DNA of 30,763 bases from a virus. The notes beneath the pieces were generated by a model. That model saw only the letters and a list, made by a program, of their open reading frames with translations, ran no database searches and was not told the DNA's origin. Below, piece by piece: positions 8,916-28,642 of the stretch. The stretch's first letter is position 1. The number at the start of each line of letters is the position of its first letter. The position numbers were made by a program, and so were the translations under genes. The stretch lies in the IMG/VR virus record IMGVR_UViG_3300037119_003463, positions 1-30,763 of that record. One strand, 5' to 3'.

Positions 8916-9009
8916 AGCTCATCACCACGCGCACAAAGACACCATCAGCCATAAGCAATATCCGCCAAGCCCAATACGTCTTTACGTGATGGTCGTGCTG
9001 AACTTTCAT
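8908..9009 (-). CDS. 33-aa microprotein bridging terminase and portal genes
   Basis: 33 codons beginning MKVQHDHHVKTYWAWRILLM. The ATG overlaps the terminase TGA (ATGA), and the stop overlaps the portal start by 8 nt, so it fills the gap between the two genes exactly. It has a His-rich N-terminus and a hydrophobic, Trp-containing centre. No own ribosome site. It may be a true microprotein or mainly a translational-coupling bridge; both are inference. Confidence 0.45.
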   Translation of the reverse strand: MKVQHDHHVKTYWAWRILLMADGVFVRVVMSYD

Positions 9010-10391: not shown

Positions 10392-10489
10392 TACATACAA
10401 ATACCACCGCACCGCATCGTGCTCTCAATAAAAATGTAGAGCCACAACGGCGTCATCAAAAGACAAAACCAGAAAAACATGTCTTTCAT
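10391..10489 (-). CDS. 32-aa membrane microprotein ahead of terminase
   Basis: 32 codons beginning MKDMFFWFCLLMTPLWLYIF: one strongly hydrophobic segment, then ESTMRCGG. The ATG overlaps the stop of the 63-aa gene (ATGA) and the TAA overlaps the terminase ATG (TAATG), so it tiles the gap exactly. Single-pass membrane peptide; function unknown. Its fit supports the terminase start at 10391. Confidence 0.55.
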   Translation of the reverse strand: MKDMFFWFCLLMTPLWLYIFIESTMRCGGICM

Positions 10490-17166: not shown

Positions 17167-17261
17167 AACGGCTCCCGGTTTTCGGGGTAGTGGCCGTTGC
17201 GCTGGTTGAACAGATGGGGTAGTATCCCTGTACAGAGCGGGATTGCTAGGGATGATACCCA

Positions 17262-17304
17262 ACCGCCACCCCCTTTTTCGGACACGGGGTGGCGGTCTTT
17301 TTTT
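17262..17304 (+). terminator. Rho-independent terminator pointing right
   Basis: Perfect 11-bp stem ACCGCCACCCC / GGGGTGGCGGT with a 13-nt loop, followed on the plus strand by C and seven T's (17298-17304). There is no T run after the hairpin on the minus strand. All flanking genes are minus-strand, so it would stop rightward (antisense) transcription or, on the minus-strand mRNA, fold over the weak TTG start at 17262. Confidence 0.6.
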
Positions 17305-17350
17305 GTCCTTTGTCAGCGTGACAGCCGAGTGACGCTACGCCCGTTAGTTT

Positions 17351-18211
17351 TCAAAATCTAGGCTTTCGCGCTGCACCTGACAATGATTGAGGCTGATGGC
17401 GTTCGGGCTGGCGTGGTTGTCCTTGCTGGCTATTTGGCAGTGCTTCGCGTTGCGGGGCTTCTTGTAGCTGGGGTTTTTCGGTTTGTGTAGATTTTGATAC
17501 TTGCTTCGGCGCTGGCTTCTCCTCGTAATAATCTAGTGCTTCCTGATCAGCCTCAGCCTGTGCTGTCGCTTCGCCTACGGCCGCTTGCAGTGCTTCGTCA
17601 ATCTTAATGCGGCTAGTCCAGCCGATTACCTCGAATATCGGAACTCGGATCTTGCCCAAAGTCTTATCACGATGATCGTATTCCCGCCAGTTCAAGCGAA
17701 TGACAGGAAACATATTCGGCGTCATCCTTGAGTGAGTGAAATATGCCTTTGCGATGACGCCGTTGGCGCTGTGGCCGCCCTTTGAGGCGGTGGCAAAGGT
17801 ATAGATTTGTTCATTCTGTGGATCATACATGATCGTGTGCGCAGAATTTTGCCACGGATCGCGTGGCTTGCCCTTGTCGTCAGTAGGCCACATTGATTCA
17901 TCCGTAGCGTCGAGATCGGCACGCTTTGGTGGTACGAAACCATCGCACATCCGGCCCATAGCGTGGTCAACAGGCCGGTTATCTTCCCACTTTTGCCAAC
18001 CAACCCACATTTCATCGCCGTGCACGATCAGCTCAGTGCCCATCGGGATTTCTTCGCCTTCCTCGCCGGCCAAAAATTCACCGAACTTCGTAAATTTCAG
18101 CAACTTGCCAATGATGCGGGATGATGTAACCGAGTTGGCGTAGGCCAAATAAGTGTTGCTGGTTTCGGTTGAGGGAAGGGTTTCGTTACGTTTGCTGATG
18201 TCGTTTGCCAT
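17351..18211 (-). CDS. Phage protein, 286 aa, recombination/replication partner of the nuclease (unknown)
   Basis: 286 aa. Residues about 30-205 form a globular domain: KFGEFLAGEEGEEIPMGTEL, then WEDNRPVDHAMGRMCDGFVP, RDPWQNSAHTIMYDP, and IYTFATASKGGHSANGVIAK. I recall similar proteins beside Cas4/RecB-like nucleases in alphaproteobacterial phages, without known function. The last 75 residues are Gln/Pro-rich and disordered. An OB-fold single-strand-binding or recombination-mediator role would fit the neighbours but is inference. AGGAAA precedes the ATG. Confidence 0.65.
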   Translation of the reverse strand: MANDISKRNETLPSTETSNTYLAYANSVTSSRIIGKLLKFTKFGEFLAGEEGEEIPMGTELIVHGDEMWVGWQKWEDNRPVDHAMGRMCDGFVPPKRADLDATDESMWPTDDKGKPRDPWQNSAHTIMYDPQNEQIYTFATASKGGHSANGVIAKAYFTHSRMTPNMFPVIRLNWREYDHRDKTLGKIRVPIFEVIGWTSRIKIDEALQAAVGEATAQAEADQEALDYYEEKPAPKQVSKSTQTEKPQLQEAPQREALPNSQQGQPRQPERHQPQSLSGAARKPRF

Positions 18212-18283
18212 TTTTGTTTTCCTGTTCTGTTTTCAGTTTCAGTTTATGGTGGCAGTTTAACGTCATGCCACAAGACGGCCTCG

Positions 18284-19348
18284 TTAGGCTACCTTGGCCT
18301 TGTCCGCCATGGTCGCCGGTTTCAGCGTGATGGTCAACTGGTCTCCTGGAATGCCTTCGTGCTTGAATTTATCGATATCTATTCCTTTCAGTCTTACCGC
18401 CTCCTTGAGAAGTATCATGTCATAAGTTTCACGTCCCTTGACTTGTGTCCAGCTAACAGTAATGCCGTCACCGGCAATTTTGTTCTGGCGCTTTTCGCGC
18501 AACCGCTCCTTGATGTTGTTTTGCAGGTTGCGCCGGTATTTCTTGGCTTCGGCTATCTCTGTTTCAAGTGCCTTATAGTGTTTAGCCAGGTCGCTGATCT
18601 CGGCAATGAACTGCTTGTCTGCCGGCTCAATCACTTCAGTTGGCACCTCTTTGCGCGCCCTCCCGCAGGCGTCCGTGAATGGGCAATACTCGCATTCCTT
18701 GCCGCCGGCAATCCAGCCTTCCGGTTTTAGTTCATGCAGCGATGTCGCGTTCATGATCCTGGTGGCGCGGATCTTGGCGCGTTCGTAGACGGCTGGATCA
18801 TAGTCAATTCGGAATTCGGTGATTTCATCCAAGAATGAAGCATTGAAGTAAACCAGGATGGTATAGTCTGGTTGCCATTTCGTTTTGGCGTGCAGAATGC
18901 CCATCTGTACTTGGACTTGATGAACATTTTCTGGTTTTGGCTCATCCAGATTGACGCGCGGGTCAAGTGATTTGCATTCGATTAGGAATTCTTGTGACCG
19001 TCGAGTAGTTGAAATTAGGCAATCCAGTGTTGCCGAGATACAGTTATCGATGAAGGTTTCTTGTTTTTTGCCAAGCAATTTGGCATCCTTGCCGAAATGA
19101 GCTTTGATCGCCGGCACGAACAAATGGTTTTCGACCAGATTGCCGCGCTCGCGAGCACCCCAAGAATCAATGTAGTCGTCATTGCGCTTGAACGTCGACG
19201 CCAGTTCAGTTTCCTCTGCCTTGGTAAACCACACCTTGCGCTCACACTGGCCGATTTCGGATGCGCCAACCGTCATGGTGCGATCGTATTTGAAATATTT
19301 TTGGTGGGTCTTGATGTAGCTGTTAACGGCGTCTTTGACGATGCTCAT
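18284..19348 (-). CDS. Cas4/RecB-like PD-(D/E)XK exonuclease with Fe-S Cys motif
   Basis: 354 aa. Motifs: first Cys at 35 (ASEIGQCERKVWF), catalytic Asp 109 (SATLDCLIS), Glu124-x-Lys126 (FLIECKS), a downstream Gln (HQVQVQMG, about 144), then Cys 219, 222 and 228 (CEYCPFTDAC). The four Cys fit a 4Fe-4S cluster as in Cas4/AddB-type nucleases. The C-terminal 100 residues are coiled-coil plus a beta tail (DGITVSWTQVKGRETYDM). It probably processes DNA ends for recombination or replication with the 286-aa neighbour. ATG overlaps the 141-aa gene's stop region (ATGA type). Confidence 0.85.
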   Translation of the reverse strand: MSIVKDAVNSYIKTHQKYFKYDRTMTVGASEIGQCERKVWFTKAEETELASTFKRNDDYIDSWGARERGNLVENHLFVPAIKAHFGKDAKLLGKKQETFIDNCISATLDCLISTTRRSQEFLIECKSLDPRVNLDEPKPENVHQVQVQMGILHAKTKWQPDYTILVYFNASFLDEITEFRIDYDPAVYERAKIRATRIMNATSLHELKPEGWIAGGKECEYCPFTDACGRARKEVPTEVIEPADKQFIAEISDLAKHYKALETEIAEAKKYRRNLQNNIKERLREKRQNKIAGDGITVSWTQVKGRETYDMILLKEAVRLKGIDIDKFKHEGIPGDQLTITLKPATMADKAKVA

Positions 19349-19770
19349 TTGACATTCTTCCAGTTTGGTTTGCCAGTTGTCAAATAGTTGCGAAGCGCGG
19401 TTGCCGCCTGTTCTGTTGTAATGTCTTCATATAATTCCGGCATGATGGTATTGGGATAGAAAAGATCAAGAAGGTTTTTAGGAAAGTCGCTAGAAACAGC
19501 GCTGAAATAGACGCCTGGGCCGCCAATGATTTCAGCCGTTCCACCAATACAGGAGACTGTACCACAGCTTTCGTAAGTTGAGGCCCATACGTCCATGTTG
19601 AAGAATTTGCCTAAGACAGGGTGATTGTCTTTGAATTCTAAACTGCTTATTGGTTTTTCCATGTGAGTTAGTTTTTTGGTTTCCAGTAGCACCAATGTTT
19701 TGATGAGTGCTTGCTTCTGCTTTTCAGTGATTTTCAGATCAGTCGCGGATTTGAAGTTTTGTGCTAGCAT
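19345..19770 (-). CDS. Phage protein with CGTVSCIGG motif, 141 aa
   Basis: 141 aa from the ATG at 19770, with a very good ribosome site (AAGGAGG); an upstream in-frame codon (19797) is rejected. Residues about 40-85 contain FFNMDVWASTYESCGTVSCI followed by GGTAEIIGG; a CGT-x-x-CI-x-G-x-A motif is common in phage and bacterial proteins of unknown function. The C-terminus carries an acidic and Thr-rich helix. The Cys pair could be a metal or redox site. Directly ahead of the nuclease gene. Confidence 0.7.
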   Translation of the reverse strand: MLAQNFKSATDLKITEKQKQALIKTLVLLETKKLTHMEKPISSLEFKDNHPVLGKFFNMDVWASTYESCGTVSCIGGTAEIIGGPGVYFSAVSSDFPKNLLDLFYPNTIMPELYEDITTEQAATALRNYLTTGKPNWKNVK

Positions 19771-19772
19771 TT

Positions 19773-19853
19773 TTAGTCCTCCTTCTTTGGCAGACAAGTT
19801 ACAATCAGCAAGAGCATTGCGATCACAAGATAATAGGCATCAAGTTCATACAT
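19773..19853 (-). CDS. 26-aa membrane microprotein
   Basis: 26 codons: MYELDAYYLVIAMLLLIVTC then LPKKED. One hydrophobic helix with an acidic start and Lys-rich end, so a single-pass peptide. Its stop sits next to the ribosome site of the 141-aa gene. No strong own Shine-Dalgarno sequence. It is one of several very small membrane proteins in this genome. Confidence 0.5.
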   Translation of the reverse strand: MYELDAYYLVIAMLLLIVTCLPKKED

Positions 19854-19866
19854 TATGCTATGGGTT

Positions 19867-20190
19867 TCATCTCTTGATGATCCGGTAAGTTGAATCGCGC
19901 TTGTAACCGGGAGCGCGAACTTCAATATCGGTTTCTGCTAGTTTGGCGTTAAGGTGCAATATATTGACGTGGATGCAATTGCGGCCGTCACGGTCGCTTT
20001 TACCGGAGTAGAACATCCTGGCCAACGTCTCACAGCTAATGCCGTGGCTACCGAAACGTTCAACCATATCGAACAAGTCAGCAAGTAGCGGTGACAGTTG
20101 CACACTATGTCGGACTAGCAGGCGCTGGCCGCAGCATTTGCAGATGGCTTGTTCGCGACGTTTCAGCATTGGTCTTCCGCCTTTGATCAT
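19867..20190 (-). CDS. Zinc-ribbon + winged-helix-like regulator, 107 aa
   Basis: 107 aa starting MIKGGRPMLKRREQAICKCC. A CKCCG metal motif (about 17-21) begins a small ribbon. Residues about 33-105 form a winged-helix pattern: LSPLLADLFDMVERFGSHGI, SCETLARMFY, CIHVNILHLNAKLAETDIEV, then a wing GYKRDSTYRIIKR, like the DNA-binding domain of OmpR-type regulators. This fits a phage transcription regulator; its target is unknown. The start at 20190 overlaps the stop of the upstream gene; an ATG at 20169 with a GGCGG site is an alternative. Confidence 0.65.
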   Translation of the reverse strand: MIKGGRPMLKRREQAICKCCGQRLLVRHSVQLSPLLADLFDMVERFGSHGISCETLARMFYSGKSDRDGRNCIHVNILHLNAKLAETDIEVRAPGYKRDSTYRIIKR

Positions 20191-20564
20191 TTTGGTGCTT
20201 TCAGTTTTACAATACGCTGTAACCGGCCGCGCGAGATTTGCCTTGCTGCCTTGATCTGGCGCGTCAGATCCTCGACCTGTTGTTTCAGTTTGTCATTTTC
20301 TTGGTCACTATAGCTGCCCCAGAGAAAATGACTGTAAGTCATCATCGCGTACTCAATTGGATTGAAGTGGCTGCACTCGTGGCTGGTCAGGACATCAATC
20401 GGAGTAGGGTTTAGGTGGCAGCGACCGATCTGTTCCATTTTTTTCTCTTTGACCAGTTTGCGAACATCGGCCCAATTATATTCTTCGCCCTTATAAGCTG
20501 GAACCCAATCCGCTGGCTTGACGCCTCGGAAATGCTGGCACATTAGGCAGGCGCGATCTCTCAT
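20187..20564 (-). CDS. Zinc-finger-like phage protein, 125 aa
   Basis: 125 aa from the ATG at 20564 (GAGGCG, 7-9 nt upstream); a longer TTG start at 20648 is less likely. Cys/His pattern: ACLMCQHFRG, GRCHLNPTPI, SHECSHFNP, suggesting one Zn-binding unit of the type C-x2-C...C-x-...-C. The C-terminal part is a coiled coil (NDKLKQQVEDLTRQIKAARQ) with a basic end. Possible DNA- or RNA-binding accessory. Function unknown. Confidence 0.65.
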   Translation of the reverse strand: MRDRACLMCQHFRGVKPADWVPAYKGEEYNWADVRKLVKEKKMEQIGRCHLNPTPIDVLTSHECSHFNPIEYAMMTYSHFLWGSYSDQENDKLKQQVEDLTRQIKAARQISRGRLQRIVKLKAPK

Positions 20565-20659
20565 ATCATTACGCCTCGACGCTGACTTTCCCAGCACAGA
20601 AAGCGGTGCCAGCCCCACCAGTACGGGTTGCAAACGAGTGTCGGACAATGAGGGCGCGG

Positions 20660-20851
20660 CTAGTCGTCATAAAATCGTTCATTTAAAAGTTCTTGGCATT
20701 GCCAGAATTCTTTTTCCGCAGCATCAATGCGTTTGGCTTCGGCTTCAGTGAATTCGGCGGTTCGGTCATTGTATGCGCCTCCGCGATTTGTAAGAGGAAC
20801 GAGGCCAAGCACAGGGTAAAGTTCGTCAACATCGTGATAGTAAAGGGCCAT
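20660..20851 (-). CDS. Small phage protein, 63 aa
   Basis: 63 aa starting MALYYHDVDELYPVLGLVPL. The second half is helical and acidic (EFTEAEAKRIDAAEKEFWQC). AGGAG lies 9 nt before the ATG. No family recognised; early-region accessory by position. Confidence 0.65.
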   Translation of the reverse strand: MALYYHDVDELYPVLGLVPLTNRGGAYNDRTAEFTEAEAKRIDAAEKEFWQCQELLNERFYDD

Positions 20852-20880
20852 GTTACAGAACTCCTATGGCTTTGCGCGAT

Positions 20881-21108
20881 TCATTGGTTTTTTGCCTTTT
20901 TGTTTTGTATTTCTTCCCATCTCTTTCCAAAAGCTAGATGCACTTCTGCATCTTGGCCGGTGTACTTGCAGTGCATTACCAAGGCAAGCGTGAGCACCAT
21001 TGGTGCCAAGGTGCCATGCTGTTCGTGTAGATCGGCAAGCAAGTGTATGGCGGCCTTGGCTTTCTCATTCATTTCAATGGCTTTTTTGGCGTCACTTTTA
21101 TTAATCAT
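20881..21108 (-). CDS. Small helical phage protein, 75 aa
   Basis: 75 aa from the ATG at 21108, overlapping the stop of the 157-aa gene (TGATG), with AGGAG 7 nt upstream; an in-frame GTG one codon earlier is possible. Mostly alpha-helical (SDAKKAIEMNEKAKAAIHLL, then VLTLALVMHCKYTGQDAEVH). No membrane segment. Unknown function. Confidence 0.65.
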   Translation of the reverse strand: MINKSDAKKAIEMNEKAKAAIHLLADLHEQHGTLAPMVLTLALVMHCKYTGQDAEVHLAFGKRWEEIQNKKAKNQ

Positions 21109-21581
21109 CACAACACTCCTAGCTTTACCCTGCAGATCTGAAACACGGTCGGATCTTCATCGAATAGTGCATCATCGAACGGCGCCAGCCCGTTCTGTTC
21201 ACGCAGGCGGACAATGGCATCGTCAATCATGCTTTGGGCGGTATAGCGTATTTCTGGCTTAAACGATTGCCAGTCAAATCCGTTTATTAGTGCAAGAAAT
21301 AAATCGGCCTGCTTGATGTCGAGTTGTTTTAGTGCATCGTGAAGCATTCTGATTATGACACCATCCGGCCCTTTCAGCGCAGTCTTATACGCTGCTTTCT
21401 TGGCGCGGTTGTAGCGGCGGAATTGCGCGTTGTCCTCGGCAATCTGCTTCTCGGCGCCACGCAAAACCATCGGCGCCTGCTTCTCGCTTTGGACAACGCG
21501 CGCCTCCCGCTTCTCTTTGCCGAAGCGTCGCGGGAGAGTGGATTCGTAATAGCGGGTCCAGGCAGCGCGGTTGTCAGTCAT
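21108..21581 (-). CDS. Phage protein, 157 aa, unknown function
   Basis: 157 aa starting MTDNRAAWTRYYESTLPRRF. The N-terminal 60 residues are basic and helical (EKQIAEDNAQFRRYNRAKKA). The C-terminal half (IIRMLHDALKQLDIKQADLF, then SMIDDAIVRLREQNGLAPFD) looks like a small helical domain. Its ATG overlaps the stop of the 78-aa gene (ATGA). No family recognised. Confidence 0.65.
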   Translation of the reverse strand: MTDNRAAWTRYYESTLPRRFGKEKREARVVQSEKQAPMVLRGAEKQIAEDNAQFRRYNRAKKAAYKTALKGPDGVIIRMLHDALKQLDIKQADLFLALINGFDWQSFKPEIRYTAQSMIDDAIVRLREQNGLAPFDDALFDEDPTVFQICRVKLGVL

Positions 21582-21814
21582 TGTTCTCTCTCATGCGGGA
21601 GCCCCAAAGCCTCACGGGCGATGTTGCGCATTTTGATGATGACCTCCCAATCAGGATCAGGTTCGTCTAGGGTGGCTGGCGGGTCTTCGGTTAGACTTTC
21701 CAGCGCCTCCCGTAGCCGCCGGATCTCATTGCGCATCGATGCCGGTGATTCCGGGTCAGGCGGGCCTGCCATCCGTTCGTTTATCTTCCGCTGCCATTCA
21801 TCCATACCGTTCAT
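21578..21814 (-). CDS. Small acidic helical phage protein, 78 aa
   Basis: 78 aa starting MNGMDEWQRKINERMAGPPD. One long helix (ASMRNEIRRLREALESLTED), then an acidic stretch and a short C-terminal helix (VIIKMRNIAREALGLP). ATG overlaps the stop of the VRR-NUC gene. Unknown function. Confidence 0.6.
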   Translation of the reverse strand: MNGMDEWQRKINERMAGPPDPESPASMRNEIRRLREALESLTEDPPATLDEPDPDWEVIIKMRNIAREALGLPHEREQ

Positions 21815-22200
21815 GTCACATCATCTTCCGGAAATGGTGCGGTCGGCTTGATTACGCCCCAAGGTATTAGGATCATTGCCGCAGTGTTGAGTGTTTTGGC
21901 GGAGCCCCACCAATGGCCTAGGTTACTGGCCTTGGCGGCAAACCCTAATTGTGGATCTGAAACCACGCCACGGTGCGCTTTTAATTCCAGCCAGCCCGTT
22001 CTGCCGCCCGGTAGTAGGAAACAGAGATCCGGGACTCCAGGCAATACGCCTTCTGCTTTCAACCGCAACGCAACACGGATATGTCGTAGCTCACCATTGC
22101 CAACGGCAAAATACACAATTTCAGGATTGGCGTATTCAGTCAGGTACTTCATTAGCTTGACCTGGAGAGTGTGCTCTGGTCGGCGGCGTTTCGATTTCAT
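21811..22200 (-). CDS. VRR-NUC nuclease
   Basis: 129 aa, the size of stand-alone phage VRR-NUC proteins. It keeps the conserved order: Glu near the N-terminus (RPEHTLQVKLMKYL), GVLPGVPDLCFLLPGG with catalytic Asp 58, Glu72-x-Lys74 (WLELKAHRG), and a C-terminal LGHWWGSAKTLNTAAMIL helix region. VRR-NUC enzymes are PD-(D/E)XK-fold nucleases, often acting on branched or flapped DNA, so resolution of replication or recombination intermediates is likely. ATG overlaps the 79-aa gene's stop (ATGA). Confidence 0.85.
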   Translation of the reverse strand: MKSKRRRPEHTLQVKLMKYLTEYANPEIVYFAVGNGELRHIRVALRLKAEGVLPGVPDLCFLLPGGRTGWLELKAHRGVVSDPQLGFAAKASNLGHWWGSAKTLNTAAMILIPWGVIKPTAPFPEDDVT

Positions 22201-22436
22201 TGTCGTTCAATTTTGCGGCACAGATCTGCGATTGATTCCATCATGGTATCGCCAAGACCGTGTAGCCCGTCACCTTCACCGTCAATCCAGGCACCATATT
22301 CACCATTTGGCAGTAATTCGGTAATGACAACTAGACGCTCACCACCATCCTCGCGGAAGTAATGTGTCTTGCGGCTATCTTCCATTTTGGCGCTGGGGAC
22401 TGAGAAGATACTGTTATATAACGTCGAACTGTTCAT
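22197..22436 (-). CDS. Small phage protein, 79 aa
   Basis: 79 aa starting MNSSTLYNSIFSVPSAKMED. The body has a beta/alpha pattern (GGERLVVITELLPNGEYGAW, then DTMMESIADLCRKIE). AGGAG lies 9 nt before the ATG. It is coupled to VRR-NUC downstream. An internal ATG at 22385 is possible. No family recognised. Confidence 0.65.
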   Translation of the reverse strand: MNSSTLYNSIFSVPSAKMEDSRKTHYFREDGGERLVVITELLPNGEYGAWIDGEGDGLHGLGDTMMESIADLCRKIERQ

Positions 22437-22660
22437 TGCTCATTGCTCCTTGGGTGGGTGGTGGATAGTGAGTGCGCCCTGAGTGCGCGGCGCTTATAGC
22501 AGCCTGCGCGAATTGTAAAGGGTGGAGCTATCCCCTGTGCGGGGGTTCATCCTTAACCGCTGCCCTTTCAGCGTAGACATATGGTAATTGTTTATCGCAC
22601 CGCAGTGCGTGACGGTTCACATGATCGCCTCCCGGTTGGGCTTAGGGTTGATGGGTTAGC
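22437..22660. other. 224-bp gap with a start-stop site, a peptide frame and a weak promoter
   Basis: The gap lies between the 79-aa and 54-aa minus-strand genes. It holds a GGGAGG-CGATC-ATGTGA start-stop just past the 54-aa gene, a 28-codon frame (22494-22580, minus) with SSTLYNS, and a possible minus-strand promoter (22493-22519). No larger gene is visible on either strand. Confidence 0.5.
22493..22519 (-). promoter_or_regulatory. Possible leftward promoter
   Basis: Minus strand TTTACA, 15 bp, TATAAG, about 55 bp ahead of the 79-aa gene. The -10 box is close to consensus, but the 15-bp spacing is short. It could give a second start for the leftward replication transcript, independent of the promoter at 23108. 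Sequence-only call. Confidence 0.35.
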
Positions 22661-22825
22661 TTACTGAGGCATCGACCAAGTGCCGTCCTCGTTCTTGACG
22701 AAGCCCATGGTCACGGCCTTCTCCAGCGTCTCTTCCTTGACGCGCAGCGCCACGATGTCGTTGATGCGGGCAGAGCTTCCTGTTTGGTGGCTTTGATTGT
22801 CTTGTGGCGGGTCATGATGAGACAC
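22661..22825 (-). CDS. Small phage protein, 54 aa, N-terminus uncertain
   Basis: About 54 aa from a GTG at 22825. The body IVALRVKEETLEKAVTMGFV, then KNEDGTWSMPQ, is clearly coding: third positions are almost all G or C, unlike its neighbours. No ribosome site precedes the GTG. An ATG at 22815 overlaps the 86-aa gene's stop (ATGA), but its frame gives MTRHKTIKATKQEALP and then stops after 34 codons. This suggests either a start codon misread or a frameshift between the two frames. A higher GC3 than the surroundings hints at foreign origin. Confidence 0.55.
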   Translation of the reverse strand: MSHHDPPQDNQSHQTGSSARINDIVALRVKEETLEKAVTMGFVKNEDGTWSMPQ

Positions 22826-23072
22826 CAATTCGTTTGTTGAAAGCCTTGATGTAGGATTGTGGGTTGTCTTGACCTTCGCGGTCGATCCAGCGTTCGTATT
22901 CTTCGCCAAGAGATGGCTTCCCGTTTCGGCCGTGAAACCGAACCAAATATCTTTCTTCGCCAGGACTATCTGTCGGCTTGAGAATTGTCGCTTGGCCTTC
23001 GAATAGTAATCCTTTGTTGGGTGACATTTGGAATACGTTGACAACATCGCCCTTCTTATGAAGGTGGTTCAT
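22812..23072 (-). CDS. Small phage protein, 86 aa
   Basis: 86 aa from the ATG at 23072, with GGAGG 6 nt upstream; a longer in-frame start at 23105 is unlikely because it lies at the probable transcription start. The sequence, with KKGDVVNVFQMSPNKGLLFE then RYLVRFHGRNGKPSLGEEYE and RWIDREG, looks like a small SH3-like or Tudor-like beta barrel. It is the first gene of the leftward operon driven by the consensus promoter at 23108. Function unknown; early regulator is possible. Confidence 0.7.
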   Translation of the reverse strand: MNHLHKKGDVVNVFQMSPNKGLLFEGQATILKPTDSPGEERYLVRFHGRNGKPSLGEEYERWIDREGQDNPQSYIKAFNKRIGVSS

Positions 23073-23107
23073 TTGTATCCTCCAATTTTTCTCTGTCTCT
23101 TGCACAC

Positions 23108-23136
23108 ATTATAGCTTGACAACTCGTCCTTGTCAA
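23108..23136 (-). promoter_or_regulatory. Consensus leftward sigma-70-type promoter
   Basis: Minus strand TTGACA (23136-23131), 17-bp spacer, TATAAT (23113-23108): a perfect -35/-10 match with ideal spacing. It would drive the leftward replication operon beginning with the 86-aa gene (start 23072). Its -35 box is one arm of the shared operator, so a bound repressor would block it. Confidence 0.85.
23116..23136. promoter_or_regulatory. Shared operator, 7-bp inverted repeat
   Basis: TTGACAA-N7-TTGTCAA, a perfect dyad of 21 bp between the two divergent genes. Each arm doubles as the -35 box of one promoter. The XRE-family protein encoded 30 bp away is the most likely binder. One protein dimer here could repress both directions or choose one. 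Confidence 0.7.
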
Positions 23137-23145
23137 CAGTAAATT
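23116..23145 (+). promoter_or_regulatory. Rightward promoter for the repressor operon
   Basis: Plus strand TTGACA (23116-23121), then 17-18 bp, GTAAAT/TAAATT (23139-23145), a weaker -10 than the leftward promoter. AGGAGG (23152-23157) follows, 8 nt before the XRE gene. The operator overlaps this -35 box, so the XRE protein may autoregulate. Confidence 0.6.
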
Positions 23146-23165
23146 AGTGTCAGGAGGTCAGTGAA

Positions 23166-23393
23166 ATGAAAAATAATTTTGGTCTCTTGATCAAGAGAAC
23201 ACGCGAAGAGGGAGGGTTAAGCCTTTTCGCTGCCGCTCGTATCGTAGGTTGCTCTAAGACTCAATTATGGGATTTAGAACAGGGGAGATCGGCTAACCCG
23301 ACAATCCAAACACTAGCGAGGCTGTCGGCAGCATTTGGAATAGAAATCGGCAAATTGGCGCGTATCGCGGCGTATGGAGAGAGAAAACAATGA
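23166..23393 (+). CDS. XRE-family HTH repressor (CI/Cro-like)
   Basis: 75 aa, only a DNA-binding domain. HTH_3 pattern: FGLLIKRTREEGGLSLFAAA, RIVGCSKTQLWDLEQGRSAN, PTIQTLARLSAAFGIEIGKL. No C-terminal dimerisation or RecA-cleavage part, so induction would need another factor. Very strong ribosome site (AGGAGG). It faces the leftward operon across the shared operator, so it is the natural candidate for controlling both promoters. Coupled by ATGA to the YdaS-like gene. Confidence 0.85.
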   Translation: MKNNFGLLIKRTREEGGLSLFAAARIVGCSKTQLWDLEQGRSANPTIQTLARLSAAFGIEIGKLARIAAYGERKQ

Positions 23394-23608
23394 GACAACC
23401 AACCAAGGAACGCCAGATCATTGCCGTAGCTTGTGAGCGGGCCGGTGGCTTGCGAGCGCTGGCGCGCGCCATCGGCATCAATTACCAGAACATTCAGATC
23501 TGGAAACGAATTCCGGCCGAGCGCATGATCGCGATTGAAACCGTCACCGGAATACCTCGTGAGCAATTGCGGCCGGACCTGTTCGTGCCGCGTAGGAAGG
23601 TTGTGTGA
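23390..23608 (+). CDS. YdaS/Cro-like HTH protein
   Basis: 72 aa. The pattern GGLRALARAIGINYQNIQIW-x-RIPAER followed by MIAIETVTGIPREQLRPDLF is typical of the YdaS/Cro-type family of prophage regulators and antitoxin-like proteins. It overlaps the XRE gene stop (ATGA). It may act as the anti-repressor partner in the switch. No YdaT-type toxin is recognised next to it. Confidence 0.85.
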   Translation: MRQPTKERQIIAVACERAGGLRALARAIGINYQNIQIWKRIPAERMIAIETVTGIPREQLRPDLFVPRRKVV

Positions 23609-23808
23609 TGGCTACTGACTGGAGGTCACGCGCCCTCGCCGCCGAGGCTGATCTAACCGCGTTTCGCCGATCGTTTGACGGGCATGTTTACGTTAAGGAC
23701 GAAGAATATGCGGCATTTCATGCGCGGCTCCGATCGGCCGAATCCGATAGAGACAAATACCGCAAGTTATGGATGGATGCTGTTGCGCCACCGGTAGAAC
23801 CGTCATGA
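23608..23808 (+). CDS. Small coiled-coil phage protein, 66 aa
   Basis: 66 aa from the ATG at 23608 (AGGAAGG, 8 nt upstream), overlapping the YdaS-like stop (TGATG). It has Arg/Glu-rich helical repeats: SRALAAEADLTAFRRSFDGH and AAFHARLRSAESDRDKYRKL. Coiled-coil throughout, no motif. Function unknown. Confidence 0.65.
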   Translation: MATDWRSRALAAEADLTAFRRSFDGHVYVKDEEYAAFHARLRSAESDRDKYRKLWMDAVAPPVEPS

Positions 23809-23840
23809 TTATCCACCAGACCAACCACAAAGGGAATAAA

Positions 23841-24068
23841 ATGCCGGAGGAATACACTTTCCCATACTTGCGTGCGTGGGAACGAATGATGCACAGCAGC
23901 GAACGCTATACTAATAGTCGGCTTGCGCTGGCGCACAAGGAAAATGCGCCACATGACGCCATGTGGCGCAGCATTAACGGCAAGTGGCACTGTTTCAGTG
24001 AAATGGCTGATCACAATCACAACAAGGCGCTGATAGCGTCATATGTGAAGGGGATTGAAGATGAATGA
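23841..24068 (+). CDS. Small phage protein, 75 aa
   Basis: 75 aa from the ATG at 23841 (AAAGGG 6 nt upstream); a start at 23805, overlapping the previous stop (ATGA), would add 12 residues. His- and Met-rich: YLRAWERMMHSSERYTNSRL, and KWHCFSEMADHNHNKALIAS. His/Cys grouping might bind a metal. The last bases start the GAAGATGA junction chain. No family recognised. Confidence 0.55.
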   Translation: MPEEYTFPYLRAWERMMHSSERYTNSRLALAHKENAPHDAMWRSINGKWHCFSEMADHNHNKALIASYVKGIEDE

Positions 24069-24231
24069 CAGCTCTAGAAATGTTAAAATAGAAGCACTCA
24101 TTAGGTTGCTGGCGGGTTGGGTTGCCCGTAACCCGGATGCCGTAGCAGGAGATGCAGCGGGCGAGGATCTTCTTGATTTAGTGCGGCGCATTGCGATTCT
24201 AAAAAAGGATTTTGAAGATGAAACGGTCTGA
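24061..24231 (+). CDS. Small phage protein, 56 aa
   Basis: 56 aa: MNDSSRNVKIEALIRLLAGW, then VARNPDAVAGDAAGEDLLDL, a helical acidic domain, ending ILKKDFEDETV. GAAGGGG lies 7 nt before the ATG, which sits in a GAAGATGA start element. It overlaps the previous gene by 8 nt and the next by 14 nt. Its last residues EDETV are encoded by the 16-bp block shared with the next junction. Function unknown. Confidence 0.6.
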   Translation: MNDSSRNVKIEALIRLLAGWVARNPDAVAGDAAGEDLLDLVRRIAILKKDFEDETV

Positions 24232-24374
24232 ATTAGAGCGGTGGATTGCGGAAAGACAGGCAGAACTTGATAAGTTGTTAGAGGAAAATTCACCGGAATA
24301 CATTCACATACGCATGAAGTTTCAAAAGGAACATGATGAATTGGTTAGCAAAGGAATCGAAGATGAAACGGTCT
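24214..24374 (+). repeat. Repeated start-junction block GAAGATGAAACGGTCT (two copies)
   Basis: The 16-bp block occurs at 24214-24229 and 24359-24374. Each copy encodes the EDETV end of one gene and the MKRS start of the next in another frame. A shorter form (GAAGATGA) occurs at two other junctions in the chain. Each is preceded by an A/G-rich ribosome site. Confidence 0.8.
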
Positions 24375-24376
24375 AG
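24218..24376 (+). CDS. Small coiled-coil phage protein, 52 aa
   Basis: 52 aa: MKRSELERWIAERQAELDKL, then LEENSPEYIHIRMKFQKEHD and KGIEDETV. All-helical and coiled-coil. It shares its first four residues (MKRS) with the next gene and its last five (EDETV) with the previous gene through the 16-bp junction repeat. Function unknown. Confidence 0.6.
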   Translation: MKRSELERWIAERQAELDKLLEENSPEYIHIRMKFQKEHDELVSKGIEDETV

Positions 24377-24500
24377 GTCGAAACCAGCTATTTGTTGCAA
24401 ATGCGGTAAAAATCTTGGTGGTCATGTTCCCAAAGATGCCGAGGACGTCACCTGTTTTGCCTGTTGTGAAGTTGAATACCAGAAAAAGGGTCGAAGATGA
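24363..24500 (+). CDS. Small zinc-ribbon protein, 45 aa
   Basis: 45 aa starting MKRSRSKPAICCKCGKNLGG. Cys pattern: C-C-x-C (CCKCG) ... C-x2-CC (CFACC), a small rubredoxin-like or zinc-ribbon fold. Short basic ends. The ATG sits in the repeated junction block. Could bind nucleic acid or act as an adaptor; unknown. Confidence 0.6.
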   Translation: MKRSRSKPAICCKCGKNLGGHVPKDAEDVTCFACCEVEYQKKGRR

Positions 24501-24754
24501 TACGGTTTAGCTTGGTAGTATTGTTCCTCGCGGTGACCGCCTTGTTGATTATAGGATGGGCACCGTCGACACCGCGATATGTATTTGACCAACAAAGCCG
24601 GCCGCGTTCGTCAATCGACATGGATGCCCTGACGGCAGCATTGCGGGAATACGGCATTTGGCGGGAGCAGCACGATCGCAACACGTTCCCGTCAGACATG
24701 CCAAAGGTCGGGGAGACCTATGATCCGGTGACCGGCAATGCGGTTCGAGAATGA
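24497..24754 (+). CDS. Membrane-anchored small protein, 85 aa
   Basis: 85 aa. N-terminal hydrophobic helix (MIRFSLVVLFLAVTALLIIG), then a soluble tail (PRYVFDQQSRPRSSIDMDAL, and FPSDMPKVGETYDPVTGNAV). Single-pass anchor with a probably periplasmic tail. Starts at a GAAGATGA junction; overlaps the zinc-ribbon gene and the next gene (ATGA). Confidence 0.6.
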   Translation: MIRFSLVVLFLAVTALLIIGWAPSTPRYVFDQQSRPRSSIDMDALTAALREYGIWREQHDRNTFPSDMPKVGETYDPVTGNAVRE

Positions 24755-24879
24755 TAACCGTCACAGCTATAGCGCTGATCTTGGCATCTCTTCTGGTGTT
24801 GTTGTGGCCAACGCCGGAGCCAGCGCTGGTTTGCCTGCTAATCGCCTTAGTGTCTCTTGTAATGAGGTTTGCGCCATGA
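24751..24879 (+). CDS. 42-aa membrane microprotein
   Basis: 42 codons: MITVTAIALILASLLVLLWP, then TPEPALVCLLIALVSLVMRF, giving two hydrophobic helices with a PTPEP turn. ATG overlaps the 85-aa gene (ATGA). Two-helix layout fits a small holin, channel or exclusion peptide, but none is shown. Too small for typical gene finders. Confidence 0.5.
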   Translation: MITVTAIALILASLLVLLWPTPEPALVCLLIALVSLVMRFAP

Positions 24880-24956
24880 GCTGGACTCACTTGGACACAT
24901 TTGCGCTGGCGGTATTCTTGTGGATGCTGCTGTTATTGCCAGTGATTTATTGGTGA
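24876..24956 (+). CDS. 26-aa membrane microprotein
   Basis: 26 codons: MSWTHLDTFALAVFLWMLLL, then LPVIYW. One hydrophobic helix, aromatic-rich ends. ATG overlaps the 42-aa gene's TGA (ATGA). It is the first 26 codons of a longer plus-strand frame read from an upstream start, but coupling points to this ATG. Confidence 0.5.
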   Translation: MSWTHLDTFALAVFLWMLLLLPVIYW

Positions 24957-24961
24957 ATGCC

Positions 24962-25060
24962 ATGATGCCTTACGATAAATTTTGTTCTGGCGTGCTCGCT
25001 TTCGTGATCGCTTGGATTTTGACAGTCATCATCATGTCTATCGTGGGACCGTTCCAATGA
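24962..25060 (+). CDS. 32-aa membrane microprotein
   Basis: 32 codons: MMPYDKFCSGVLAFVIAWIL, then TVIIMSIVGPFQ. One hydrophobic helix. It starts 5 nt after the previous stop (start codons at 24962 and 24965). Its last codons overlap the 44-aa gene (ATGA). Confidence 0.45.
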   Translation: MMPYDKFCSGVLAFVIAWILTVIIMSIVGPFQ

Positions 25061-25191
25061 CAGAACAGCAAATCAGATCTGAATATCTATGCGGCGAATG
25101 TGATCTTATCCACGCAATAGAAATGCTTCAGGAGTATTGCGGGATGTCTTCTCGTGAAGCAGAGGAGATAGTTTATAAATGGGAAGATTAA
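25057..25191 (+). CDS. 44-aa soluble acidic microprotein
   Basis: 44 codons: MTEQQIRSEYLCGECDLIHA, then IEMLQEYCGMSSREAEEIVY. CGEC plus a later Cys. Acidic, helical. Overlaps the previous gene (ATGA) and the next. Its only non-membrane neighbour set suggests a cytoplasmic partner for the membrane peptides (inference). Confidence 0.5.
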   Translation: MTEQQIRSEYLCGECDLIHAIEMLQEYCGMSSREAEEIVYKWED

Positions 25192-25292
25192 GCACACGCA
25201 TCTTTTGGACGATCATCCTCACTATCGACAGTGGTTGGGTGCTACTCGCTTTGTCAATCTACTCAGCAAGATCAGGGAGGTATCCGCAATGA
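25179..25292 (+). CDS. 37-aa membrane microprotein
   Basis: 37 codons: MGRLSTRIFWTIILTIDSGW, then VLLALSIYSARSGRYPQ. Basic ends and one weakly split hydrophobic helix (interrupted by DSG). It overlaps the 44-aa gene and its stop overlaps the 178-aa start (ATGA). AGGAGATAG lies 11 nt upstream. Confidence 0.45.
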   Translation: MGRLSTRIFWTIILTIDSGWVLLALSIYSARSGRYPQ

Positions 25293-25825
25293 CCCGTGAA
25301 CAACTTACCGCCGCAGCCGAAGCCGACGAGATTGAAGCCGCGCTTAAGGCTTACTCTAGGAAGCCATTTAGGTGGCTGGTGATATGGGGAAATGGCGATG
25401 AAACGCTCTATGACCATGAGCCACCGGCAACGCCATACGACAAAGAAGTTATCCCGCTTTATTGTAAGCCGTCTGTAACGAATATGGAAACCATTGCCGA
25501 GCTTCGCTATGAGGCAGAGAAGTACAAGAGCCTATATGAGGCCGCTATAGAGCGCGATCCATGGGGGCAGATAAGAAATCAGCCAAGGAAATTAGTTGAT
25601 AATGGTGATCTCTGGATGGCCGAGCAAGGAATGAAGGTGCGCTTGGAAGCACAGGACCCGAGCGGAAAATGGATTGTAATCTTCCCGGCGCAGCTAGAAC
25701 AGATGATCCAGCAAGGTGCAGCAGTCCGAGCCACTGAGGTCGAGTATGATTTGGAGGCGACACCATCACGCCCACGACCCGCGAGGATCCGCCGTCTTGT
25801 GTCCGGAGCGAAAGACCCGTCATGA
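25289..25825 (+). CDS. Phage protein, 178 aa, unknown function
   Basis: 178 aa from the ATG at 25289 (GGGAGG, 8 nt upstream), overlapping the 37-aa gene (ATGA). N-terminal domain MTREQLTAAAEADEIEAALK, then KPFRWLVIWGNGDETLYDHE, and a coiled-coil C-terminus (IAELRYEAEKYKSLYEAAIE) with basic end. N-terminal half resembles small phage proteins of unknown function (from memory). Its last codons overlap the PP-loop gene (ATGA). Confidence 0.6.
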   Translation: MTREQLTAAAEADEIEAALKAYSRKPFRWLVIWGNGDETLYDHEPPATPYDKEVIPLYCKPSVTNMETIAELRYEAEKYKSLYEAAIERDPWGQIRNQPRKLVDNGDLWMAEQGMKVRLEAQDPSGKWIVIFPAQLEQMIQQGAAVRATEVEYDLEATPSRPRPARIRRLVSGAKDPS

Positions 25826-26568
25826 GGCGCACAGTTTCTTGGTTCTCCTGCGGCGCGGCCTCGGCTGTTGCCACTAAGCTGATGCCGACCGCCGTCCCCG
25901 CCTATTGCGAGACTGGCGCAGAGCATCCCGACAACATGCGATTCATGGCCGATTGCGAGGCGTGGTTTGGGCGGCCCGTAGAGCGGCTGAAATCCGGCAC
26001 CTATGCCGACACATGGGACGTGTGGGAACGCACCCGCTGGCTTGCCGGCATCAATGGGGCACGCTGCACAGTCGAGCTAAAGGTTGCCCCTCGCCTTGCT
26101 TGGCAGCGCCCTGACGACATCCATGTGTTCGGCTATACGGCAGACGGCCCAGACAGCGACCGCGCCGCCCGGCTGCGCGCCAACTATCCCGAGCTTACAA
26201 TCGTCACGCCGCTGATCGACCGGGGCATAACCAAGGCGGCCTGTCTGGATATGGTGCAGCGGGCCGGACTCAAGCTGCCGCCGCTCTATGCTCTAGGCTT
26301 CCAGAACAACAATTGCCTGCCGTGCGTCAAGGCGACATCCCCGGCCTATTGGGCGTTGGTCCGCCAGCACTTCCCCGACAAGTTCGACCGGATGGCGAAG
26401 CTATCTCGCGAACTCGACGTGAGGCTATGCCGGCTGAATGACGTTCGGTCATTCATTGACGAGATTCCGGCGGATCAGGAGACGACAAATCCTCTGGCCC
26501 CGTCGTGCGACTTCCTTTGCCACATCGCAGAACAAGACATGGAGTCGGCCAAGGCTCCAGCGCTATGA
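25822..26568 (+). CDS. PAPS-reductase-like PP-loop protein
   Basis: 248 aa. A PP-loop motif SCGAAS (9-14), YCETGAEHPDN (28-38), then C82, NNNCLPCVKA (C165, C168) and SCDFLCH (C229, C233). This is the phage-borne PAPS-reductase/DndC-like superfamily. Such proteins adenylate a substrate and transfer sulfur or are of unknown role. The paired Cys could hold a metal or Fe-S cluster. Higher GC than the neighbours suggests recent acquisition. ATGA overlaps on both sides place it in the accessory operon. Confidence 0.75.
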   Translation: MRRTVSWFSCGAASAVATKLMPTAVPAYCETGAEHPDNMRFMADCEAWFGRPVERLKSGTYADTWDVWERTRWLAGINGARCTVELKVAPRLAWQRPDDIHVFGYTADGPDSDRAARLRANYPELTIVTPLIDRGITKAACLDMVQRAGLKLPPLYALGFQNNNCLPCVKATSPAYWALVRQHFPDKFDRMAKLSRELDVRLCRLNDVRSFIDEIPADQETTNPLAPSCDFLCHIAEQDMESAKAPAL

Positions 26569-26738
26569 CTAACGAAATCGCGACTATCTTTGCAGAGGCC
26601 GAACGTCAGCGTGAAGCGTGGCACAAGCGGATCTCGATTGACTATAAACGCCGGTCAAATCCTGCAATAGAAGGTCATCAAAACGACAGATGGGCGGCTT
26701 CCCTGAAAGGGAAAGCCGCCATAAGACCAGATGATTAA
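26565..26738 (+). CDS. Small phage protein, 57 aa
   Basis: 57 aa from the ATG at 26565, which overlaps the PP-loop stop (ATGA). A helical N-terminus (MTNEIATIFAEAERQREAWH), then RNPAIEGHQNDRWAASLKGK-like residues ending in a hairpin-coding stretch. A longer upstream frame is out of the PP-loop gene and rejected. Function unknown. Confidence 0.6.
   Translation: MTNEIATIFAEAERQREAWHKRISIDYKRRSNPAIEGHQNDRWAASLKGKAAIRPDD
26693..26720. terminator. Strong stem-loop at the convergent operon ends
   Basis: GGCGGCTT-CCCT-GAA-AGGG-A-AAGCCGCC, a 12-bp stem with one bulged A and a GAA loop, inside the final codons of the 57-aa gene and 26 bp from the end of the opposed 90-aa gene. No T run follows on either strand. 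A two-way terminator or mRNA 3' end protector is plausible. Confidence 0.5.
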
Positions 26739-26745
26739 GTAAGGT

Positions 26746-27018
26746 TTAGCGTCGGGCGCGAGTCGCCTGCGGAGCATTGGGGTCCACTGGCGGTTCGACA
26801 GGCGGCGGTACGTTTACATTGAGCGCCGCGTCCATGGCGGTAGCGTCGGAAGTTTCGACGGTGAACACTTCATCGATGGCCGCCTGAATTTCCGGCGTCA
26901 TCGCGTTGGCAAGGGCCGCCTCAAGTTCGGCCTTTTTCGCTTGGAACAGCGCAATAAGTGAACCGGTTCGGGAACTGTTCGCCTTAACGACTTCAAGTGC
27001 TTCTTGAATGGTAGACAT
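26746..27018 (-). CDS. Phage accessory structural-type protein, 90 aa
   Basis: 90 aa from 27018 with AAGGAG 8 nt upstream. A helical N-terminus (EALEVVKANSSRTGSLIALF, then KKAELEAALANAMTPEIQAA), then a Pro-rich tail (VPPPVEPPVDPN). The helix plus Pro-rich tail layout is common in phage small virion accessory proteins (from memory). Last gene of the right-hand minus-strand operon, ending at the convergent stem-loop. Confidence 0.6.
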   Translation of the reverse strand: MSTIQEALEVVKANSSRTGSLIALFQAKKAELEAALANAMTPEIQAAIDEVFTVETSDATAMDAALNVNVPPPVEPPVDPNAPQATRARR

Positions 27019-27063
27019 AGATGGTACTCCTTCATATTCCCTGGGGCCGCCAAGGGTCGGTTT

Positions 27064-27273
27064 TCACTTATCCTGTTTGGCGGCATCGATCTTGGTATTG
27101 GTGCCTTTCAGGATGCTCGTGAGATCGTTAAGCGCCTTTTGGTCCTTGTCTGACAACCGCGTGCCTCTAGCATGCAGCTTTGCCAGTATCTCTTCGTTTT
27201 GTATCATTAGATAGTATTGCAGCTCCAACAGGTCGATTACCCAATCCGGAGCACCTTTCCATCCATTGCCCAT
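27064..27273 (-). CDS. Small helical phage protein, 69 aa
   Basis: 69 aa starting MGNGWKGAPDWVIDLLELQY. All-helical (QNEEILAKLHARGTRLSDKD). GGAG lies in the leader (GGAGAC). Unknown function; position in the lysis/late group suggests a virion or lysis accessory. Confidence 0.55.
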   Translation of the reverse strand: MGNGWKGAPDWVIDLLELQYYLMIQNEEILAKLHARGTRLSDKDQKALNDLTSILKGTNTKIDAAKQDK

Positions 27274-27459
27274 TTTGTGGTCTCCATGATTAAGCCGGTT
27301 ACTAAGCTACGAATGTAAGAAGTAATCTGAGCAATATTGTTCTAAATTTTTATTTTTTAACACCGGTAAATATGGTTCCGTGTTTAGCAGCCGCGACAGA
27401 TGTTAGGGCTGAACGGTTCTGCTGGTGGCAGTATCTCAGGACCGCCCGTGTCCCCCGCG

Positions 27460-27633
27460 TCAACGAATGGGTGATCCAAAGGCGTGAAGGCCAAGAATAC
27501 CTATTAGCACGAACAGGATAAACCAGCCGCCCCATGTAGACCATGACGGAGCTGGTTGCCACGGATTGGCGCCCCAGATTCCGAAAATGCCCACTAGTAC
27601 ATAGATCAACCAGAACCAGATATTTGCACCCAT
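27460..27633 (-). CDS. 57-aa double-pass membrane protein (holin-like)
   Basis: 57 codons: MGANIWFWLIYVLVGIFGIW, then a Trp/Pro turn (NPWQPAPSWSTWGG) and a second helix (WFILFVLIGILGLHAFG). AGGAG lies 5 nt before the ATG. Two helices with a short loop and no charge in the helices match a small holin. It lies just after the endolysin and the 87-aa membrane protein, so it is a good holin or antiholin candidate (inference). A longer frame in the same stretch is a shadow. Confidence 0.65.
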   Translation of the reverse strand: MGANIWFWLIYVLVGIFGIWGANPWQPAPSWSTWGGWFILFVLIGILGLHAFGSPIR

Positions 27634-27645
27634 TCAGTCTCCTAG

Positions 27646-27909
27646 CTACAACGGGGTATTGAGATTTGAGGCGATATTTTCAGCCCGGCCTTGTTCGAGT
27701 CCAACCGCCGTGCCTTCGGCAAGCGAAGCTTTAGCCGTTGATTCGACTAACTGGTCTTTCATCGAATTCGCTGCCTTTTCGATTTGCTGTACATTATTGG
27801 CGACGTGATTGAGGCGAATATGGCTAAGTACGCTCGCGACTAGTGAGCCCATTGCGGTCACTAGAGTGGCGAGCGCAACGATCACTTGTGCTACACCGTC
27901 AAGTTGCAT
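27646..27909 (-). CDS. Membrane-anchored coiled-coil protein, possible holin/spanin-like
   Basis: 87 aa. N-terminal hydrophobic helix (VAQVIVALATLVTAMGSLVA) then a coiled-coil (NNVQQIEKAANSMKDQLVES). The layout resembles spanin-like or holin-associated proteins with the coil in the periplasm or cytoplasm. The ATG overlaps the end of the endolysin gene by 11 bp. A lysis-cassette member is the best guess. Confidence 0.6.
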   Translation of the reverse strand: MQLDGVAQVIVALATLVTAMGSLVASVLSHIRLNHVANNVQQIEKAANSMKDQLVESTAKASLAEGTAVGLEQGRAENIASNLNTPL

Positions 27910-28642
27910 GGTCGTTGACCTTTGTTATAACGCGAACACCAGGCGGCGCTATAACATCGATCGTAACGACTTGTTGATCTGGTGTTGACGTTGGGGTTGA
28001 TGGTTTCTGTACACCGCCGGCCGGCGAGATCCATTTCAGGAATTCATCGTTGGTGCCGTTGAACCGATCGAAGTCGACCAGAGAGCCTTCAATTCCCGGC
28101 AGCGAGCCGGTCTCGCTGTACTGATGCAGAGTCCACTTTGGATAGGTGCCGGTCGGCCATGTGATATCATCGAGGGTGCCGGGGCTTTGATACTCGGCCA
28201 GCCACAAATCGGTTGACGATTTAAGCAACGGGTCGACCTTGCCACCGGCAAGCTGCTCCTTGAGCAGATGGCCGCTATAGACCGTGATTTGCAAATCCAG
28301 ATTTGTATTCTTTAGCGCTAGCACGGCCTCTTGCAGTTCATGCAATTTGCAGCCGTTTTGCTCATAATCGATCACAACGCGCTCACCGCGCACTGGCTTA
28401 ACAGTATCGAGGTAGAACTCCATTTGCGCGCTAGGGCTCGATCCAGGCGATAACCAGTGATAGGTCGAAACCTTGAGTCCAGCCGCAATTGCTTTGGTGC
28501 AGTTGGTGGCGCGATTCTGGTCAACGAAGCCCTGCCCCTCGGTCGCCTTATGGATCATGCCAAGTACGCCGGATGCCGCGACTTGTTTGAAGTCGGGGAA
28601 TCCTTGATGGTGACTGATGTCAATGCAGACTGGAGCACTCAT
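27899..28642 (-). CDS. GH25-family endolysin (lysozyme)
   Basis: 247 aa. GH25 marks: CIDISHHQG (Asp 8), Lys-rich KATEGQGFVD, the catalytic pair Asp92-x-Glu94 (VVIDYEQNG), a TDLWLAEYQ strand and LHQYSETGSLPGIEGSLVDF closing the barrel. No signal peptide is visible, so export would need a holin. The last 40 residues are Thr/Pro-rich with a hydrophobic strand. It cleaves the peptidoglycan sugar backbone (family knowledge). ATG overlaps the tail fibre stop (ATGA). Confidence 0.88.
   Translation of the reverse strand: MSAPVCIDISHHQGFPDFKQVAASGVLGMIHKATEGQGFVDQNRATNCTKAIAAGLKVSTYHWLSPGSSPSAQMEFYLDTVKPVRGERVVIDYEQNGCKLHELQEAVLALKNTNLDLQITVYSGHLLKEQLAGGKVDPLLKSSTDLWLAEYQSPGTLDDITWPTGTYPKWTLHQYSETGSLPGIEGSLVDFDRFNGTNDEFLKWISPAGGVQKPSTPTSTPDQQVVTIDVIAPPGVRVITKVNDHAT

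Follow-up and report, generated by a model that had tools for sequence, protein, structure and literature searches.

The + strand operon and its nine microgenes

The window analysed here is the whole of a virus record of 30,763 bases, which belongs to a tailed phage according to two markers of this group, the genes for the terminase (9006-10412, - strand) and the portal protein (6639-8915, - strand). In a terminase comparison, Rhizobium phage RHph_I3_18 (63%) and Bradyrhizobium phage ppBjS10J-1 (61%) come nearest among named phages, and because of this closeness to rhizobial phages the host of this soil phage is likely to be of rhizobial type. Among the proteins tested in a synteny check, only the terminase and the portal are common to the window and these two phages, and no DNA similarity to known phages was detected across positions 22000-27500. 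The structural and replication genes are located on the - strand, and the chain of microgenes that is the subject of this work is part of an operon on the + strand.

This operon starts with two helix-turn-helix genes. HTH1, a putative regulator (23166-23393; PHROG 8/4, E about 1e-7), is the first gene of the chain and is followed by HTH2, a Cro/YdaS-like regulator (23390-23608; PHROG 35, E 2.9e-8) with a homologue of 62% identity in another phage (G012). Two ORFs with no assigned function come next, of 66 residues (23608-23808) and 87 residues (23805-24068), the C-terminal tail of the latter (KGIEDE) lying within the half copy of the repeat described below. The nine microgenes are then followed by an ORF of 178 residues with no assigned function (25289-25825), recognised by the chain and by codon usage, by a gene for a PAPS-reductase-like protein of 248 residues (25822-26568; PHROG 424, E 4.4e-41) and, at the end of the chain, by an ORF of 57 residues (26565-26738), all of them on the + strand. 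A further match of the PAPS-reductase-like protein is to the SspD profile of PADLOC (E 2e-14), possibly at superfamily level only.

Upstream of the operon there is an operator-like palindrome, TTGACAACTCGTCCTTGTCAA (23116-23136), which is overlapped by two divergent predicted promoters, a perfect consensus one on the - strand and a good one on the + strand. This layout is phage-switch-like, and the palindrome is likely to be a conserved operator. Its form, TTGACA-N9-TGTCAA, is also found in two other contigs (L106:14018-14038 and L185:2165-2185), and its spacing is kept 5' of the HTH2 homologue in another phage (G012/L185). Besides, a perfect GC-rich hairpin of 11 bp (23945-23970) is located inside the 87-residue ORF and is followed by a run of T on the - strand, so that it looks like a terminator for antisense transcription. 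Positions 27899-28642 encode what we take, from its sequence alone, to be a GH25-like protein, with small hydrophobic ORFs nearby; the lysis function is probably located outside the microgene chain.

The earlier note on this DNA had described nine ORFs of 26-85 codons placed head to tail and almost all overlapping, and all of them are present. In order along the + strand, m1 (24061-24231) encodes a soluble product of 56 residues; m2 (24218-24376), an acidic, helical-looking one of 52 residues, proposed from layout and codon usage; m3 (24363-24500), a product of 45 residues with two CxxC pairs; m4 (24497-24754), a protein of 85 residues with an N-terminal hydrophobic segment or signal peptide and a conserved domain; m5 (24751-24879), a hydrophobic product of 42 residues with one or two predicted membrane segments; m6 (24876-24956) and m7 (24962-25060), hydrophobic products of 26 and 32 residues; m8 (25057-25191), an acidic, soluble one of 44 residues; and m9 (25179-25292), a hydrophobic one of 37 residues. 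Neighbouring microgenes overlap at seven of the eight internal junctions, and m6 and m7 are separated by a 5-nt gap.

The five hydrophobic segments proposed in the earlier note are also borne out. The maximum Kyte-Doolittle mean over 18 residues is 2.68 in m4, 2.77 in m5, 2.35 in m6, 2.93 in m7 and 1.89 in m9, and it does not exceed 0.80 in the other four products. As regards the zinc ribbon attributed to m3, the two CxxC pairs are there and could bind zinc, but neither Pfam nor PHROG supports membership of such a family; the comparison with the PDB gave only a local match of 15 residues to a C2H2 protein, which was not taken as meaningful.

A junction repeated at successive starts

Three of the microgene starts are embedded in a repeated DNA element. 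The motif GAAGATGA occurs on the + strand at 24057, 24214, 24359 and 24493 and nowhere else on that strand of the window; five further copies are all on the - strand. A search for repeats delimited a family of 30 nt beginning at 24202, 24347 and 24481, whose members keep the same position relative to the starts of m2, m3 and m4. The first copy of this cassette (24202-24231, + strand) consists of the m1 tail EDETV-stop, a ribosome site and the m2 start; the second (24347-24376, + strand), of the m2 tail EDETV-stop, a ribosome site and the m3 start; and the third (24481-24510, + strand), of the reading EDDTV-stop, a ribosome site and the m4 start. The earlier note had counted four reused starts with A/G-rich ribosome sites. 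A Shine-Dalgarno site at normal spacing is indeed present in all copies, and full copies stand at three starts (24218, 24363 and 24497), but the m1 start at 24061 carries only a half cassette, AAGGGGATTGAAG ATGAA (24048-24065, + strand), that has just the upstream half in common with the others and reaches 12/27 identity to the full copies. Therefore, the four starts become three and a half.

Identity was counted over 27 positions around the start, with the start codon itself excluded. The pairs reach 21/27 (m3-m4), 18/27 (m2-m3) and 16/27 (m2-m4), whereas random pairs of ATG codons from the window reach at least 18/27 with a frequency of about 5e-5 and 16 with one of 3e-4, these values rising to about 2e-4 and 9e-4 for ATG pairs with a Shine-Dalgarno-like site. 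The GAAGATGA junction is thus a true repeat. It is read in two frames, one of which gives the tail EDETV-stop of m1 and m2 and the other MKRS, the first residues of m2 and m3. At the m3/m4 junction the same DNA reads EDDTV-stop in the frame of neither gene; such a ghost tail is expected if it was the DNA, and not the protein, that was copied. The gene bodies between the copies have no homology to each other in DNA or protein. Duplication of whole units in tandem was ruled out, the bodies of m1, m2, m3 and m4 being no more similar than shuffled sequences. When viral contigs were searched for the cassette, the pattern appeared in 31 of them as single matches at chance level, more than one copy being found only in a nearly identical contig (L167).

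The Shine-Dalgarno site carried at normal spacing by every copy would also be expected if the repeat were a strong ribosome-binding start that selection for translation had fixed several times, with neither recombination nor gene exchange. This reading accounts poorly for the identity that reaches 8-12 nt beyond the start codon (AAACGGTCT / ATACGGTTT) together with the common upstream tail, for the tail that one copy keeps in an unused frame, and for the quite different sites found at other junctions of the same operon, and we consider it unlikely. Less probable still is that the repeat serves as a regulatory target of a phage protein (an operator, an RNA-binding site or an antitermination site) whose placement at starts controls translation or transcription. 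A role of this kind has a precedent in the Start-Associated Sequences (SAS) of cluster K mycobacteriophages, which have been put forward as candidate binding sites (PMC3203893); however, the cassette is not palindromic, it has only three clustered copies, it is missing from the promoter of the operon, where the separate palindrome sits, and among relatives it occurs in the identical contig only.

Coding capacity and relatives of the chain

The nine ORFs stand in the middle of a more extended series of 16 ATG ORFs (23166-26738), a chain being defined by each ATG ORF starting between -20 and +10 nt from the preceding stop. The longest run was 7 in 300 dinucleotide-shuffled versions of the region and is 2 on the opposite strand; the nine-ORF part alone is longer than any run in 2,000 shuffles (maximum 7). 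The chain has 15 junctions, of which 14 overlap: nine are of the ATGA type, one is TGATG, one overlaps by 8 nt (ATGAATGA), one by 13 nt and two by 14 nt; the remaining one is the 5-nt gap. Small early genes that overlap are commonplace in phages, and long chains of small overlapping ORFs are also found in relatives, with 15 members in G004 and 12 in G008 as counted mechanically and without curation.

Diverged relatives, among m1, m2 and m4 searched across the collection, were found for m1 and m4 only, and their bias to changes at the third codon position confirms from sequence comparison that both are real, protein-coding genes. m1 has a single diverged relative, at the edge of contig L192, with 78% identity over 37 residues and mismatches distributed 5/4/23 by codon position (32 codons). 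The homology runs to ...RRIAxL and ends just 5' of the cassette; after this break, L192 has another tail (APEQEK-stop), another next gene at an ATGA junction and then an integrase-like ORF. Relatives of m4 occur in three further lineages (G001/G002/L183, L184 and G012/L185), with homologues at L090:7261-7545, L106:16848-17255 and L184:4890-5150, and the mismatches between the window and G001 are distributed 6/1/14 by codon position. All members of this family have a signal-peptide-like N-terminus and a common domain, YGxWRxxxDxxxFPxxxPxxGExYDPxTGN. The AlphaFold model of m4, with an N-terminal helix and a helix at 42-63 (pTM 0.27), is too weak for a fold search. The L184 contig gave no match to the window terminase, and for this reason m4 may cross phage groups.

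Frame-breaking changes in related phages, which the earlier note had named as evidence against these genes, were looked for in m1 and m4, and the frame is intact in both. For m2, the collection contains no relative except that in the nearly identical L167, and the relatives of the 178-residue and 87-residue ORFs are likewise confined to L167. Neither m1 nor m4 matched bacterial genomes, and m1, m2, m3, m4 and m8 gave nothing significant against annotated phages. The other seven microgenes are proposed from their layout, to which favourable codon usage is added for m2, m7 and m8; codon usage also favours m1 and m4. The weakest case among the nine is m6, which an in-frame alternative ATG at 24738 would extend to 72 residues. 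That most of the nine are chance ORFs, with m1, m4 and perhaps m2 and m8 as the only genes, is improbable: seven lack diverged relatives and the codon usage of m3, m5 and m9 is not favourable, but the chain length was never reached in the 2,000 shuffles and the hydrophobic peak of each of the five membrane-type ORFs is higher in the proposed frame than in every other one.

A case of gene gain or loss is provided by L167, which is the same phage (100% identity over 20195-27537 and three mismatches in the 4,251 nt of 15604-19854). It is devoid of a gene of 107 residues (window 19867-20190) that belongs to a - strand operon and lies at a stop-start junction. The gene upstream of the missing one ends KLKAPK-stop in the window versus KLKAQADRFAKMHNKNV-stop in L167, and all three mismatches fall within codons 1-10 of the gene that follows, a hydrophobic ORF of 26 codons (19773-19853), at third positions and without changing the protein. 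A gene has changed here jointly with the end of the gene upstream of it and the beginning of the one downstream.

Proposed gene exchange at junctions and comparison with known systems

Taken together, these data make it moderately probable that the locus is the accessory part of an early operon, in which small genes are swapped at stop-start junctions bearing their own ribosome site. At the ATGA overlaps of 4 nt, ribosomes would probably pass from one gene to the next by termination-reinitiation. The GAAGATGA cassette is of another kind: it comprises the final codons of one gene, a Shine-Dalgarno site of its own, and the start codon and initial codons of the following gene, with overlaps of up to 14 nt, and because it has this site it could start translation by itself. 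It may have originated from one stop-start junction by a short, local duplication, new small genes being placed between the copies by recombination. Since the cassette supplies an end and a start, an incoming gene body would gain both at once, and copying of the cassette would allow a new gene to be inserted while the translation of its neighbours is kept. Co-transcription, coupling and the order of these events are what we infer.

The long chain, the identity of the cassettes, the non-homologous bodies, the ghost tail, the codon-position bias of m1 and m4, the break of homology between m1 and its L192 relative, the presence of the m4 family in other lineages, the change in L167 and, in related phages, the enrichment of junction repeats and the apparent decayed duplicate of L094 (see below) are counted in favour of gene exchange at junctions. 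Counted against it are the few diverged relatives, the codon usage of m3, m5 and m9, the eight pairs on which the enrichment is based, and the site of gain or loss in L167, which is in a - strand operon away from any GAAGATGA copy. The idea of a modular start-stop cassette through which genes can come and go, as advanced in the earlier note, is supported by the non-homologous bodies, the break of m1 homology at the cassette and the gain or loss in L167 at a comparable junction; the cassette itself may be the driver.

The exclusion or host-takeover function that had also been suggested found no direct support, as no meaningful match to known exclusion, takeover or anti-defence proteins was obtained with Pfam, PHROGs or PADLOC in a scan that covered m1-m5 and m7-m9. 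In tailed phages, small orphan genes are numerous in the early accessory (host-takeover) regions. The present chain resembles them in its position after a Cro-like gene and in its tiny orphan genes, many with membrane segments, and differs in that its products have no homologue of known function among those found. A host-directed role is no more than plausible, given the position in the early operon and the signals for membrane insertion or export; the products, five of them with a membrane or export segment, would act on the envelope of the host at an early stage of infection, and may do so at the inner membrane or beyond.

Among the systems described so far, SAS are 13-bp elements located 5' of the start, present in 11-19 copies genome-wide and conserved between phages (PMC3203893), and an analogue has been reported in cluster EF Microbacterium phages (PMC7302621). 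The likeness to SAS/ESAS is that short, asymmetric DNA is repeated within one phage at translation starts of unrelated genes, at the ribosome-binding site and sometimes holding the stop of the upstream gene. In contrast to SAS, the repeat of the window crosses the start codon into both genes, its three full copies are side by side, and it is private to this phage, relatives having their own. A search of the window for the SAS consensus GGGATAGGAGCCC, allowing 2 mismatches at most, gave no match. A repeat just upstream of the starts of unrelated genes is seen at three starts, where it also continues past the start; the 11-19 dispersed copies have no counterpart, three full and clustered copies being present in this genome fragment, and conservation among related phages is missing too, as only one of the 31 contigs with the pattern has more than one copy. 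Because three of the four SAS features tested are absent, the cassette is not considered a member of SAS, although it may work like them.

Related to translational coupling, it has been reviewed that ATGA overlaps favour coupled translation and that the efficiency of coupling drops as the overlap grows from -4 to -25 nt (PMC12548453). Overlapping or touching stop and start codons, typical of coupled operons, are present in the chain as the ATGA, TGATG and 8-nt junctions. The two 14-nt junctions of the cassette differ from them in having a spacing with weaker reported coupling and in carrying their own Shine-Dalgarno site; weaker coupling at long overlaps is consistent with such junctions needing their own ribosome site.

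The unusual part of the system is the copied junction that spans both genes. It bears on the question of how phages gain functional tiny genes without disrupting tightly overlapping operons, which would be solved by a junction that provides the preceding gene with its end and the following one with a ribosome site and a start. The exchange would be readable in the sequence as private junction repeats, ghost tails and homology breaks at starts, and this offers a route to overlooked microgenes, m1 and m4 being two conserved protein families without a name.

Among related phages, junction pairs identical at 16 or more of 23 positions are about six times commoner than control pairs of starts (8/8,476 versus 8/48,621), a figure based on eight pairs, two of which are the window's own, and the repeats differ in sequence from phage to phage. 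It is conceivable, as a distinctly more tentative proposal, that in these phages stop-start junctions themselves serve as units for the accretion of microgenes, in which a junction (tail, ribosome site and start) is copied, a foreign gene body is captured between the copies and the copies then decay, the private repeat of each phage being the scar of a recent capture. In one relative (G019, contig L113) two successive genes end LEQKSP-stop over the next start, and these genes look paralogous too. In another (G003, L094:4016-4478) there is an apparent decayed duplicate of the end of the preceding gene, with a second copy of the next start junction. The strongest start-junction repeat among the relatives, with 21/23 identical positions, is found on the - strand of contig L115 at 4303 and 4503, where it precedes one short ORF and one large ORF of 787 codons.
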